Shown: positions 9,164-25,700 of the stretch, piece after piece | Position numbering within the stretch: position 1 is the stretch's first letter | Layout of the letters: the number at the start of each line of letters is the position of its first letter | IMG/VR virus record: IMGVR_UViG_3300030107_002372 | Coordinates: 16,878-43,612 of that record | DNA length: 26,735 bases | Direction: 5' to 3' (one strand) | Source of the DNA: a virus | Notes under the pieces: model-generated | Told to the model about the DNA's origin: nothing | The model's database searches: none | What the model saw: the letters and a program-made list of their open reading frames with translations, nothing else | Position numbers and translations under genes: made by a program

Positions 9164-9837
9164 TGGATAGGACAATCAGAGGATTAGTAAATTCTAAGCA
9201 AGCTAACTTGCATACGGAAGAAGAGGTATCTGTTGATAAATTAGCCGATGGTCAGGTTGTTATGTCTAAGGGTTCTGGTCGTCAACCCGTTTTAGCAATA
9301 AAGAAAGATGGGAAGGTATATAAGGCAAATATGTCTTATAATGGAAATCATGTGGTTGATAGATCACTCATAGCTCATACTATAAAGTATACCAATAAAT
9401 TTATAGACTATCGTTGTTTTTCTCATAATTTTAATTTAGACCTCGACACAACAGAAATATACCTACCTTGGTATAATACTGGAGAACTTACAGCACTGCG
9501 TCCAGCGGTAGGATTTCTAACTCCATTTAAAGCTACTTGTCATAAGCTAATATTTAAACCTCCTAACCTTGATGATAATGCAGATAACATAACATTTGCA
9601 ATTAAAAAAATAGATAATGGAGATGCAACAACTGATGCTTTATGCAACTATACATATTCAACTACATTTGTAGATCACACGTCAGTCACAATCAATAAAT
9701 CTGACTGGAGCGCCTCTCCAACTGTTGACGCTGGTGATGTTATTGCTATCACTGTTACAGCTTCGCATGCTGATATAGTAACCAGCGCAAAAGATTTTTG
9801 GGTTACTTCGGTTTGGAAAATGGAAATAGTGGTTTAG
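9163..9837 (+). CDS. Virion structural protein with C-terminal beta-sandwich
   Basis: 224 aa. The N-terminal 65 residues (MDRTIRGLVNSKQANLHTEE and VSVDKLADGQVVMSK) read like the short leader that links marine phage fibre-type proteins to the virion. After a linker, residues about 90-224 form a predicted beta-sandwich (KATCHKLIFKPP, NITFAIKKIDNG, DVIAITVTAS, VWKMEIVV) common in structural proteins of such phages. It starts one base inside the stop of the tail-nozzle gene, so it may be a tail-associated accessory fibre or decoration protein. The exact role is not known. Confidence 0.5.
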   Translation: MDRTIRGLVNSKQANLHTEEEVSVDKLADGQVVMSKGSGRQPVLAIKKDGKVYKANMSYNGNHVVDRSLIAHTIKYTNKFIDYRCFSHNFNLDLDTTEIYLPWYNTGELTALRPAVGFLTPFKATCHKLIFKPPNLDDNADNITFAIKKIDNGDATTDALCNYTYSTTFVDHTSVTINKSDWSASPTVDAGDVIAITVTASHADIVTSAKDFWVTSVWKMEIVV

Positions 9838-17243: not shown

Positions 17244-17330
17244 TGACTTAAAAAACCCCCTCTATATTCCCGTATTTCGCTATAAAAACTTTTTTTTGAT
17301 ATAACTATCGACTAAATAAAACATTAATAA

Positions 17331-17352
17331 TAAGGGGGCGTTAGCCCCCTTA
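17331..17352 (-). terminator. Probable intrinsic terminator of the minus-strand operon
   Basis: Perfect 9-bp inverted repeat TAAGGGGGC / GCCCCCTTA with a four-base loop, 14 bases past the stop of the 70-aa gene. Read on the minus strand it is followed by TTATTAATGTTTTATTT, a moderately T-rich tract. On the plus strand no T tract follows. Confidence 0.6.
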
Positions 17353-17365
17353 TATTCAACAAGTC

Positions 17366-17578: not shown

Positions 17579-17603
17579 GCATGCCTCCTATTTATGAGAT
17601 GGT

Positions 17604-17819
17604 TTAGTTCAGATCTTTTTTAGCAACCACGCTGGTACTTTCATCTGCAATACCCTTGTATCTGATACCAAACCATCTCGTTTGTTGTTCATATTTTTTT
17701 TCTAACTCTTTCATTCTTTGATGTGCGGCCCCATTCTGCCTTACCACATTACGTTTCAATAATCTTTTGTAAAATGCAATAAGTGCTCTGCGCTTCATTA
17801 GTTTGTGACTATTATTCAT
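17604..17819 (-). CDS. 71-aa basic hypothetical protein
   Basis: Strongly basic, helical protein (LMKRRALIAFYKRLLKRNVV, then HQRMKELEKKYEQQTRWFG). It overlaps the nuclease-like gene upstream by eight bases, so the two are probably cotranslated. The composition would suit nucleic-acid contact, but no family is recognised. Confidence 0.5.
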   Translation of the reverse strand: MNNSHKLMKRRALIAFYKRLLKRNVVRQNGAAHQRMKELEKKYEQQTRWFGIRYKGIADESTSVVAKKDLN

Positions 17820-19498: not shown

Positions 19499-19909
19499 TT
19501 AAAAGTGCTTCATGGTTCCTATCTTATCAAGGCACGCCTGAAGATTATCAAGTGTTATGTTGCCTTGTTTAAGCTGGTAAAGAACTTTGTTTTTATCCTT
19601 CTGCCCTAGTGTTTTTACTGCCATTTCTATCGTGTTTCTTAAATAGTCTTCATCTGTTTCTTTTATCTCTTCACCGCCAAACACTTTAACTACCTCTTCT
19701 TTCAGTTCTGTATCTGTCATAGCTTTCTTTTTATCTAGCACATCCTTTATCCCATCGTAGCCATGTATAATGAACTGAACCCACTTCTCTATCTCTCTCA
19801 TGTTTTCCGGTGTAAGTTCCATTCCCTTACTAAAAGCCTCGACAGCGACACCATGCCGTATCTTACCTTCGGTTATCTTATCCCAGTCGGGTTGTTTTTG
19901 ATCACTCAT
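19499..19909 (-). CDS. Conserved phage protein next to Cas4-like nuclease
   Basis: 136 aa. The start (PDWDKITEGKIRHGVAVEAF and M-E-L) matches a widespread phage type with the phrase D-W-D-x-I-x-x-G-K-x-R-x-x-V-A-V, usually found next to recombination or DNA-binding genes. The rest is acidic and helical, ending in a Leu/Gln-rich repeat-like segment. It starts within the ATGA overlap with the nuclease gene and has GGAG upstream. The function is unknown; a partner of the exonuclease is plausible. Confidence 0.55.
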   Translation of the reverse strand: MSDQKQPDWDKITEGKIRHGVAVEAFSKGMELTPENMREIEKWVQFIIHGYDGIKDVLDKKKAMTDTELKEEVVKVFGGEEIKETDEDYLRNTIEMAVKTLGQKDKNKVLYQLKQGNITLDNLQACLDKIGTMKHF

Positions 19910-20634
19910 AAGTCATCTCCTTTTTCTTTTAGTCCTCCACCACACACTTGATAAAAGTTGCAGTATTTTATATTACATTCCCATTTGTAAACAGGCGCAA
20001 CCCCTAGCTCTATTGGAGGATTTCCTTTTTTAAATCTTTCATTTACATCATGCCAATATTTTTTTGCTTTGTCTATGTATGATGTTCTAATTACTTTTTC
20101 TTTCATTCTTGAATTATCTTTATTGTAATATATTAACGAAAGTTTTTTTAATTTGTTCCCAAATTCTTTTTCATACCACCAACCATAAGTTCCTAGCTGT
20201 AAAAAATAATTCTCAGGCGGGTTAGGATCTGGAGCTCTTCCAAAGATCCCTCTCCACTTCCATGCATTACATGTTTTAATATCATAAAGAGCATTATCCT
20301 CTACTATTACAACATCTAAAAAACCCCTGACATTAACCTCTGGCAGTCTTATTTCCTTCTCAATAAGTATTTTAGAACCATTTAATCTGGCATGCTCCAT
20401 CAATGCTTCTTGTATATCTCCATGCACAAGGTCTCCCAAGCGAAACAATCTTAAAGTATCGTCATTCACTGGCGTTGGCTCTACTCCTGCAACGTGCTGA
20501 AAATAATGCTTACGCATACACATCCCAGAAGCAGATCCGTGAAACCACTCTCCGTGATCCTCGTACCTTTTTTTGTAGTGTGTCTCATTGCCCTTGCGAA
20601 GCCACTTGTGGTAAATATCTTGTATGTCTATCAT
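19906..20634 (-). CDS. Cas4-like PD-(D/E)XK exonuclease with Fe-S cluster
   Basis: 242 aa, usual length for phage Cas4-like nucleases. It has all RecB-type landmarks: C39 (SGMCMRKHYFQ), H71 in G-D-L-V-H, D107 in R-G-F-L-D, D118-I-K120-T, Q146 in F-L-Q-L-G-T-Y, and a C-terminal C220-x4-C225-x5-C231 set that with C39 would hold a 4Fe-4S cluster. Family members are 5'-3' ssDNA exonucleases that make overhangs, in phages probably for recombination or replication. The operon downstream holds a conserved partner, a possible ssDNA-binding protein and another nuclease, forming a recombination module. No cas1 or cas2 and no CRISPR array are present. The ATG follows an AAGGA-type site and the structured leader upstream. 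Confidence 0.82.
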   Translation of the reverse strand: MIDIQDIYHKWLRKGNETHYKKRYEDHGEWFHGSASGMCMRKHYFQHVAGVEPTPVNDDTLRLFRLGDLVHGDIQEALMEHARLNGSKILIEKEIRLPEVNVRGFLDVVIVEDNALYDIKTCNAWKWRGIFGRAPDPNPPENYFLQLGTYGWWYEKEFGNKLKKLSLIYYNKDNSRMKEKVIRTSYIDKAKKYWHDVNERFKKGNPPIELGVAPVYKWECNIKYCNFYQVCGGGLKEKGDDL

Positions 20635-20655
20635 TCCTTATTTCCTTTGGTATGT

Positions 20656-20733
20656 GAAAAATGCGGGGCAAATCGAGATGTGTAGTTGCGGGTGGCCGGA
20701 AAAGTATAAACCGACCTATGACATGCCCCGCGT
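20656..20733 (-). promoter_or_regulatory. Structured intergenic element, terminator/attenuator-like
   Basis: Read on the minus strand, GCGGGGCA pairs with TGCCCCGC 53 bases later (8 bp), and the second arm is followed by ATTTTTC, like an intrinsic terminator. Inside is a second hairpin, GGTCGG / CCGGCC with an 11-base loop and one G-U pair allowed only on this strand. Directly after it, ACCCGC could pair with the GCGGG of the first arm, excluding the terminator stem. The element lies between a 66-aa gene and the Cas4-like gene. It could be an attenuator, a small RNA or a riboswitch of unrecognised class. Confidence 0.5.
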
Positions 20734-20739
20734 GGATCA

Positions 20740-20940
20740 TTAATCCTTATACTCTAATACATTCTTTTTACTAGAGAACAAAGTTATCTCAATGTCCTCA
20801 CCTCTTTTTGTTTTAATATGCATTGTCCTAAAATACTTTTCTCTTGTTTGGGACATTTTTAACGAATAGGTCTCTTCTACTTTTACAGACTCAACATCGT
20901 GTATATTAACTTCCTGCCCCGTTCCTATTTGAAGCTCCAT
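20740..20940 (-). CDS. 66-aa hypothetical protein
   Basis: Begins MELQIGTGQEVNIHDVESVK with a good GGGAG site that lies inside the end of the previous gene. Beta-strand-like alternation (YFRTMHIKTKRGEDIEITLF) suggests a small beta-fold. No family is recognised. It is the last gene before the structured intergenic element and may be separated from the nuclease module by it. Confidence 0.5.
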   Translation of the reverse strand: MELQIGTGQEVNIHDVESVKVEETYSLKMSQTREKYFRTMHIKTKRGEDIEITLFSSKKNVLEYKD

Positions 20941-21181: not shown

Positions 21182-21706
21182 TCATTTTACACAACTATAA
21201 TGCTTAACATGATCAATAAGTTCCAAATTTCTTTCATATTCTTTTATCATTGTTTGTATATTTTTATAATAATCATAATCGCTATATGTTTTTATCTTGT
21301 GGCAGTTACGACACCGCACATCACACTTTTCTATCTCTCTTTTTATTGTGCTCCATTTATATCCGTTCCTAACCATGTATGAAATACCTTCTGACCCTTG
21401 AAATTTTTTCTTAATTCCTCTAACATGATCAAATTCCAGAACTCGATGGTCTTGTGTACCACAGTCAACACATCCTTTAGCAAAATACATATATAATATT
21501 TTTTCATAGTTCTCATTTTGTAACTTTGCCTTTCTTTCCTTTGTTTGTTTAAGTCGCTTTTCTCTGTTCTTTATATACCATTGTTGATTATGATATTTCT
21601 TTTGACATTTCTTGCAACTATACTGTCTACCATCAGCCTTTTGTCTGTTGATATAGAAGTCTTTCTTTGGTTTTTCTTCGTGGCAACTAGCACATATTTT
21701 CATCAT
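21182..21706 (-). CDS. HNH endonuclease (free-standing homing type)
   Basis: 174 aa. The N-terminal zinc pair is C5-A-S-C8 and C31-K-K-C34, in the context E-K-P-K-K-D-F-Y and Y-S-C-K-K-C, typical of phage HNH proteins. The second half holds C79-x-x-C82, L-E-F-D93-H94-V and K-C-D-V-R-C132-R-N134-C135-H136, the HNH/zinc nuclease core. Such enzymes nick or cut phage DNA to spread their own gene. It stands alone between the methyltransferase-like gene and a small gene, with GGAG upstream. ATG ATG offers two starts three bases apart. Confidence 0.85.
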   Translation of the reverse strand: MMKICASCHEEKPKKDFYINRQKADGRQYSCKKCQKKYHNQQWYIKNREKRLKQTKERKAKLQNENYEKILYMYFAKGCVDCGTQDHRVLEFDHVRGIKKKFQGSEGISYMVRNGYKWSTIKREIEKCDVRCRNCHKIKTYSDYDYYKNIQTMIKEYERNLELIDHVKHYSCVK

Positions 21707-21733: not shown

Positions 21734-22369
21734 TTAGCATTTTATACCACTAAAATCTTTTACTACTTCTCTGCATAATTCTTTCGGAAGAAGCCCTCTC
21801 TCATACGCATTTTTTAAACCTTGTGTTCCGGTTCGACTCCCTCTAGGAGCTCTCTCGTGATGGCAGTCGGGGTTACCATTCTTACACATCTCTCTTGGCT
21901 TCCAAGAATTGCTGTTCGTCCATATGTCAGTTGGCTTCATTCTGCTATCGCCATACTGACAAAAAGAAACAGTATGCCTGATCGGTAATTCCTGCACTAC
22001 GTCCAATTTTCTTAGCAATCCTCTTGGGTTTTCCATATACCAATATTCAGGGTTAAAGTATTCTATTATCTCTAGTGCTTTCTTAACCATTGCCAGTCCA
22101 ATATAGGCTTGAGATGTTTTGGGTATGTATGCTCGATGACCACCTTTCCAGTGATGTCCAATTGATGCAACGCTAAAGGTTGTGCAGGGCGGTGAGGCCC
22201 ATACCACATCGGGCTTAAAGGGTATCTTCTTGGGAGCGATAAACAAGATATTGGTCTCCAGCGTGATATCCTTACCACCTACGATGTCTATGGTATAGAC
22301 CTCATGCCCATATTCTTTAGCCACCTTTGAGAAGGTGCAAGAGCCTGCAAATAATTCTAAAACTTTAAT
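21734..22369 (-). CDS. Short C5-cytosine DNA methyltransferase-like protein, ATT start
   Basis: 211 aa when begun at ATT. Motifs: I, KVLELFAGSCTFSKVA (SAM binding); IV, W-A-S-P-P-C62 with the catalytic Cys; VI, Y-M-E113-N-P; then Q-Y-G-x-S-R-M-K-P-T-D-I-W-T and A-P-R-G-S-R-T-G-T-Q-G, typical of the compact phage version. An ATG for the expected start (M-K-V-L-E) is absent: the codon is ATT at 22367-22369, with AGGAG six bases upstream, and a stop lies two codons before. The first standard start, GTG at 22324, would remove motif I. The family methylates cytosine in DNA, often protecting phage DNA from host restriction. The target domain is short, so specificity is unknown. It follows the 55-aa gene immediately. 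Confidence 0.7.
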   Translation of the reverse strand: MKVLELFAGSCTFSKVAKEYGHEVYTIDIVGGKDITLETNILFIAPKKIPFKPDVVWASPPCTTFSVASIGHHWKGGHRAYIPKTSQAYIGLAMVKKALEIIEYFNPEYWYMENPRGLLRKLDVVQELPIRHTVSFCQYGDSRMKPTDIWTNSNSWKPREMCKNGNPDCHHERAPRGSRTGTQGLKNAYERGLLPKELCREVVKDFSGIKC

Positions 22370-25280: not shown

Positions 25281-25700
25281 TTAATAGTTTTGATGTCCAT
25301 GTAATTCCATGTGGCAGTTAGCACAAAGGACAATACACTTCTTGATCTCGTTAAATATTTTCTTGAGTCCAAACCCATCCCTAACCATGTTGCCCACGTT
25401 GGCTTCTTTTGTATGGTCGTGATGATGAAATTGTAATGCCCAAGTAGAAAACTTTTTACCTCTTGATCTCTGAGAGTAACCACAACTTACACAACTCAGT
25501 TCTTCTTTGTACTCTCTCACCTTTCTAGCCTTCTCCATTCTTCCGTTAGGTGTTTTCTTTTTATGATCCCAATAGCATCCATGTTTTGTACAATAGTATC
25601 TTCTGTATGGATTACCCGACTTGTCAAACATACCCGTCTTAGCAAACTCTGATAAATCCATACTGGAATTACATCCTTTACACGTTCTTGTTTCTGTCAT
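25281..25700 (-). CDS. HNH endonuclease, second copy type
   Basis: 139 aa. The N-terminal zinc site is C7-K-G-C10 and C37-x4-C42; the core is C70-V-S-C73-G-Y-S, L-Q-F-H92-H93-H94-D95, and C126-A-N128-C129-H130-M-E-L-H134. It belongs to the same broad HNH class as the protein at 21182-21706 but is clearly diverged. It is probably a free-standing homing endonuclease. The start overlaps the stop of a 30-aa frame (ATGA), and it has no ribosome site of its own, so it is probably translated by coupling. Confidence 0.85.
   Translation of the reverse strand: MTETRTCKGCNSSMDLSEFAKTGMFDKSGNPYRRYYCTKHGCYWDHKKKTPNGRMEKARKVREYKEELSCVSCGYSQRSRGKKFSTWALQFHHHDHTKEANVGNMVRDGFGLKKIFNEIKKCIVLCANCHMELHGHQNY

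Follow-up and report, generated by a model that had tools for sequence, protein, structure and literature searches.

The RNase III processing sites of phage T7 are stems with an internal loop, placed between early cistrons. In phage T4, a folded 5' part of the gp32 system is followed by an unstructured part which carries the ribosome-binding site (PMC535899). The gene 43 operator is a hairpin-loop of 16-18 bases with overlapping ribosome-binding site sequence (PMC3014915). Here we describe element 1, a new covarying RNA family that constitutes a leader ahead of a Cas4-like exonuclease gene. It was analysed in a viral DNA stretch of 26,735 nt (hereafter the window), positions 16,878-43,612 of the IMG/VR record IMGVR_UViG_3300030107_002372; the full viral record is 43.6 kb long.

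Organization of the leader

The Cas4-like gene (19906..20634, minus strand) codes for a PD-(D/E)XK exonuclease (PDDEXK_1, phrog_1706). Directly upstream of element 1 lies orf66 (20740..20940, minus strand), encoding a small beta-strand protein. The two genes are separated by 105 nt on the minus strand. Element 1 occupies this gap from the stop codon of orf66 up to a point shortly upstream of the Cas4 Shine-Dalgarno sequence, and the gene layout bears out the site proposed in the initial annotation, between the small early genes and the recombination module. The early region of the window also contains two HNH endonuclease genes (21182-21706 and 25281-25700, minus strand) and a small C5-methyltransferase-like gene (21734-22324).

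The covariance-model match (R1/R2) to this structured RNA spans 20663..20731 of the minus strand, on which all parts described below are located. Both helices that had been read from the letters by eye were found at their places. The outer 8-bp stem, P1, is formed by GCGGGGCA (20724..20731) and TGCCCCGC (20663..20670), and is lengthened in the window by GTC/GAT beyond a 1x1 mismatch. It encloses a 6-bp hairpin, P2, with arms GGTCGG (20711..20716) and CCGGCC (20694..20699) that include one U.G pair; the P2 loop (20700..20710) is rich in U and poor in G. P2 and the 3' arm of P1 are joined by J2/1 (20671..20693), a C/A-rich, G-poor single strand which starts with ACCCGC (20693-20688) and contains the conserved core CAACTACACATCT (20688-20676). 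ATTTTTC (20662-20656) is situated directly 3' of P1, and the Shine-Dalgarno-like AAAGGA of the Cas4-like gene (20643..20648) lies outside the fold.

In general, P2 is nested within P1 and the two are separated by a G-poor single strand with the core CAACUAC, the whole taking up about 70-90 nt; P1 and P2 together make up a helix of about 18-20 bp around an internal loop. P1 starts shortly past the upstream stop codon, and in 21 lineages its end lies 17-28 nt upstream of the Cas4 start codon. The Cas4 Shine-Dalgarno sequence is about half to fully unpaired in the predicted fold. Because G is depleted in the unpaired parts (7% in the P2 loop, which has 58% U across the 21 lineages, and 8% in the junction), these are expected to stay open. 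The CAACUAC core is kept in most clades and altered in the group of L026, L034, L042 and L060. Tertiary pairing or a pseudoknot among loop, junction and tail was in no case better than in swapped or shuffled controls, and a pseudoknot of gp32 type was not found. Sequestration of the Shine-Dalgarno sequence by the P2 loop, or a pseudoknot formed by it, was rejected, since pairing energies were no better than those of between-lineage swaps.

When the site was folded with RNAfold in 215 nt of context, both helices reached pair probabilities of 0.97 or higher. The fold energy in the window is unremarkable (z -1.73, 14 of 200 shuffles being as good), the plus-strand fold has z 0.08, and equally strong stems are present elsewhere in the window. 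Folding energy alone would not reveal element 1; conservation and covariation are decisive.

Covariation and strand

Covariation in relatives had been named beforehand as the test on which the proposed structure could fail, and element 1 passed it. A model derived from 8 copies served to align 30 copies, and the alignment is fitted to this model. In it, pairing is canonical in 97.6% of pair cells and two-sided changes occur at 15 of 17 pairs (96 cells). The covariation score is 0.576, a level that none of 500 shuffles attained; shuffled alignments gave 0.228, and sliding by 1-3 columns gave no more than 0.10. The same complementarity was recovered by an independent, model-free stem search. Parsimony on the Cas4 protein tree counted about 40 two-sided and 29 one-sided branch changes; with about 40 two-sided changes, inheritance of one event is no explanation. 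Sequences of P1 differ widely among relatives, as in CGGGGCAGG/..TTGCCCCG, CAGGGCAGGC/GCCTGCCCTG, TTAAGGGCGAGG/CCTCGCCCTTAA, AGGGGGTAGG/CCTACCCCCT and GAGGGTCAACT/AGTTGGCCCTC. P2 occurs as GGTCGG, GGCGG, GATCGG, GAACTGG, GGTTGG or CCAGATTG, each with its complement.

Across relatives, 21 G.U pairs are found versus 4 A.C pairs. It is therefore reasonable to assign the RNA to the Cas4-sense strand, as the G-U logic of the hairpin had indicated. With helices supported by covariation and a fixed position before one gene on its sense strand, element 1 can be regarded as a conserved structured RNA, putatively cis-regulatory.

The initial annotation recognised no known class, and Rfam 15 agrees: there were zero hits at the gathering threshold in the window or 8 relatives, and at relaxed thresholds the window and 10 relatives yielded chance-level hits only. 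An earlier description of element 1 was not found in the literature searched, where the 224-motif set of 2017 was compared via Rfam only.

Distribution in viral genomes

In the viral collection, 64 proteins are related to the Cas4-like protein (64-87% identity), and profile search adds others down to 58% identity. One relative is encoded on a Marinimicrobia MAG contig; the phage collection gave zero matches at E 1e-5. A homologous element is present at the same position in about 55 viral loci of uncultured marine phages. The architecture is shared by about 50 of the first 64 Cas4 relatives and by L124, L161, L165, L171 and L173. Each of 35 full viral records contains one convincing copy or none, always directly before Cas4, and no convincing second copy. 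L033 and L048 display the architecture by stem search and fall below the reporting level of the model in the full-record search. Outside the lineage, the CAACTACACATCT pattern retrieved unrelated matches only and no model hit.

Element 1 is absent before Cas4 in L049-L058 and in the more distant L176-L203. Non-carriers have the Cas4 start overlapped by the preceding gene, orf84 running into it; in carriers, the start is spaced and has its own Shine-Dalgarno sequence.

The sole hint of a host is the Marinimicrobia MAG contig. A host-encoded element was rejected: in the phylum of this MAG, the element occurs in 1 of 199 genomes, on a 9.6-kb contig also holding the Cas4-like gene, and the other 198 are without element and gene at the thresholds used.

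In every carrier lineage but L060, orf66 adjoins element 1 upstream, and it is absent from the non-carrier records searched. Its relatives were detected only in contigs already in the set. No PDB structure matched its predicted four-stranded fold at E below 0.1, and the viral library gave only uncharacterised phage proteins. On the simplest reading of these gene orders, orf66 and element 1 would have entered or left the interval between orf84 and Cas4 jointly. L060 demonstrates that the element can persist without the gene. The link is correlative, seen within a single lineage, and may go back to one event.

Further structured elements

A second covarying RNA, element 2, is located before an SSB-like gene (17578-17366, minus strand), at 17596-17679 on the minus strand, 3 kb downstream of element 1. 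Two-sided changes affect 14 of 19 pairs (63 cells) in 24 aligned copies, with 0 of 500 shuffles reaching this level. Its P1 comprises 13 bp + 6 bp, and a GRUUGGC strand is conserved in most relatives. Element 2 can be recognised by eye in the majority of the 59 loci inspected, among them those without element 1, to which it is unrelated; in the window, the upstream ORF extends into its 5' arm. A terminator-like hairpin, ATAAGGGGGCTAACGCCCCCTTAT (17330-17353, minus strand), immediately follows the SSB-like gene, close to where the early and late genes converge.

In records where element 1 is missing before Cas4, the early operon has stems with long loops at other places. Strong stems whose loops are poor in G precede orf84 or a small ORF in L050 (2711-2768), L054 (2716-2769), L049 (2553-2623) and L053 (2557-2620). 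The L050 stem before orf84, GAGGGCAGCCTAGT/ACTAGGTTGTCCTC enclosing CCCCACAACTAC, retains a CCACAACUAC core without P2. This shared core suggests homology to element 1, though it receives no support from the model (E 0.59, E-values of the covariance models being rough). In L056 (1227-1300) and L116 (10190-10315), a 16-bp stem enclosing hairpins (CCGG..CCGG, AGTCTTTTGACT) precedes an 86-aa gene and is possibly a further RNA family. L115 (6027-6185) and L122 (6536-6649) share a near-identical 84-nt element, GAT(A/G)AGAGCGT..ACGCTCTTATT, with a conserved 62-nt loop; as it stands before different genes in the two phages, it is possibly mobile. A 20-bp stem with 51-nt loop before a 118-aa gene is found in L110 only (9548-9781).

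Possible function

Position, strand, single copy and fixed spacing argue for a cis-acting leader that works on mRNA. We give about an even chance to the reading that element 1, as part of the early polycistronic mRNA, controls translation of the Cas4-like exonuclease. The most likely mechanism would be that of a protein-bound translational operator. The fold would display a single-stranded patch and an open ribosome-binding region, and a phage or host protein binding RNA or ssDNA would attach to the patch and repress or time exonuclease synthesis. The SSB-like protein, the exonuclease and orf66 are candidates for this binding protein. A conserved open strand beside an exposed ribosome-binding site would favour protein binding, as in T4 genes 32 and 43, and the second structured leader before the SSB-like gene counts as support. 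Translational operators usually overlap the ribosome-binding site, but the fold of element 1 stops before it. Also counted against the operator are the single-strand core, which is not invariant given the L026/L034/L042/L060 group, the lack of any loop-Shine-Dalgarno or other tertiary pairing that beats swapped controls, and the Cas4 homologues of L049-L058 and distant loci, which do without element 1.

The data do not decide between such an operator and an element for mRNA processing or stability. In the latter case, host RNases would cut the stem or be blocked by it, in the manner of a T7 RNase III site, and the Cas4 mRNA would receive a 5' hairpin with no protein operator involved. The length of the P1 and P2 helix around its internal loop, the site between cistrons of a long operon, and other long intercistronic stems at various places in the same phages are consistent with this possibility. 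We consider it somewhat unlikely, as the long G-poor strand with its CAACUAC core exceeds the needs of a processing hairpin.

An independent trans-acting small RNA that merely shares its locus with Cas4 would fit the compact conserved fold and the exposed single strands. It is improbable given that the element always lies directly before Cas4 with tight spacing and has no conserved terminator or promoter.

The initial annotation had interpreted the site as an intrinsic terminator or attenuator with mutually exclusive pairings, because the GC-rich P1 is followed by ATTTTTC in the window and ACCCGC can pair with GCGGG. The alternative pairing is indeed possible there (5 bp as opposed to 8 bp), but it is not conserved and remains at shuffle level across lineages. 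Its fold is also 8 kcal/mol weaker than the main one (-18.9 versus -26.9 kcal/mol), which tells against the proposed attenuator or riboswitch switch. Neither is the U-run conserved: among the 8 bases that follow P1, 5 T or more are present in no more than 5 of the 21 lineages, and a terminator scan found no terminator-like site. Since lineage comparison and fold energies both go against it, this terminator and switch were rejected; comparison largely refutes the reading and leaves it a very small probability.

Similarly slight are the prospects of a metabolite riboswitch of new class. The two-helix layout in a 5' leader and a partly conserved junction strand would suit it, but there is no invariant binding core (J2/1 and loop vary in sequence and length between clades), no alternative structure covers the Shine-Dalgarno sequence, and the single gene context is not metabolic. 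A protein-coding reading, as a small gene or a leader peptide (ORF 20740-20585), is suggested by an ATG at the upstream stop, from which a frame continues across the element in many lineages. This reading, like that of a DNA-level site (origin, recombination), is highly unlikely: a frameshift separates the near-identical L024 and L025; L008, L046, L124 and L171 have no such ORF; the only one in L007 (ATG inside the element) stops after 12 codons; open frames account for over half of all frames in this place in any case; and the G.U/A.C asymmetry speaks for an RNA of one strand.

Returning to the translational operator, it is conceivable, though rather doubtful, that elements 1 and 2 are two operators of one phage RNA-level circuit which would set the exonuclease:SSB ratio in recombination, with orf66 as dedicated RNA-binding partner moving with element 1. 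The pairing with orf66, together with the second leader before the SSB-like gene, yields a specific hypothesis about binding that short RNAs and small proteins would suffice to test. Element 1 adds a covariation-supported RNA family without Rfam entry to an uncultured marine phage lineage, and points to RNA-level control of phage recombination genes beyond the T4 model.

Comparison with known regulatory elements

Like the T7 RNase III sites, element 1 has a stem with internal loop between early cistrons; in contrast to them, it contains a long conserved single strand, and its cleavage is only putative. The manA and wcaG families are similar in being RNAs detected by comparative genomics beside protein genes in marine phages (PMC2864571; Rfam), but no Rfam model matches element 1 in either gathering or relaxed search. 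With the gene 32 (SSB) operator of T4 and RB69, it shares a fold followed by an open stretch with the ribosome-binding site, before a phage gene of replication or recombination (PMC535899). That operator is a gp32-bound pseudoknot of about 28 nt, whereas element 1 is P1 enclosing P2 in about 70-90 nt, with no pseudoknot found, a putative binder only and an exonuclease as the gene concerned. Finally, the gene 43 operator of T4 and RB69 likewise places a hairpin ahead of the start codon, again in a phage gene for DNA metabolism (PMC3014915). Compared with this hairpin, element 1 is larger, consists of two helices and ends before the Shine-Dalgarno sequence.
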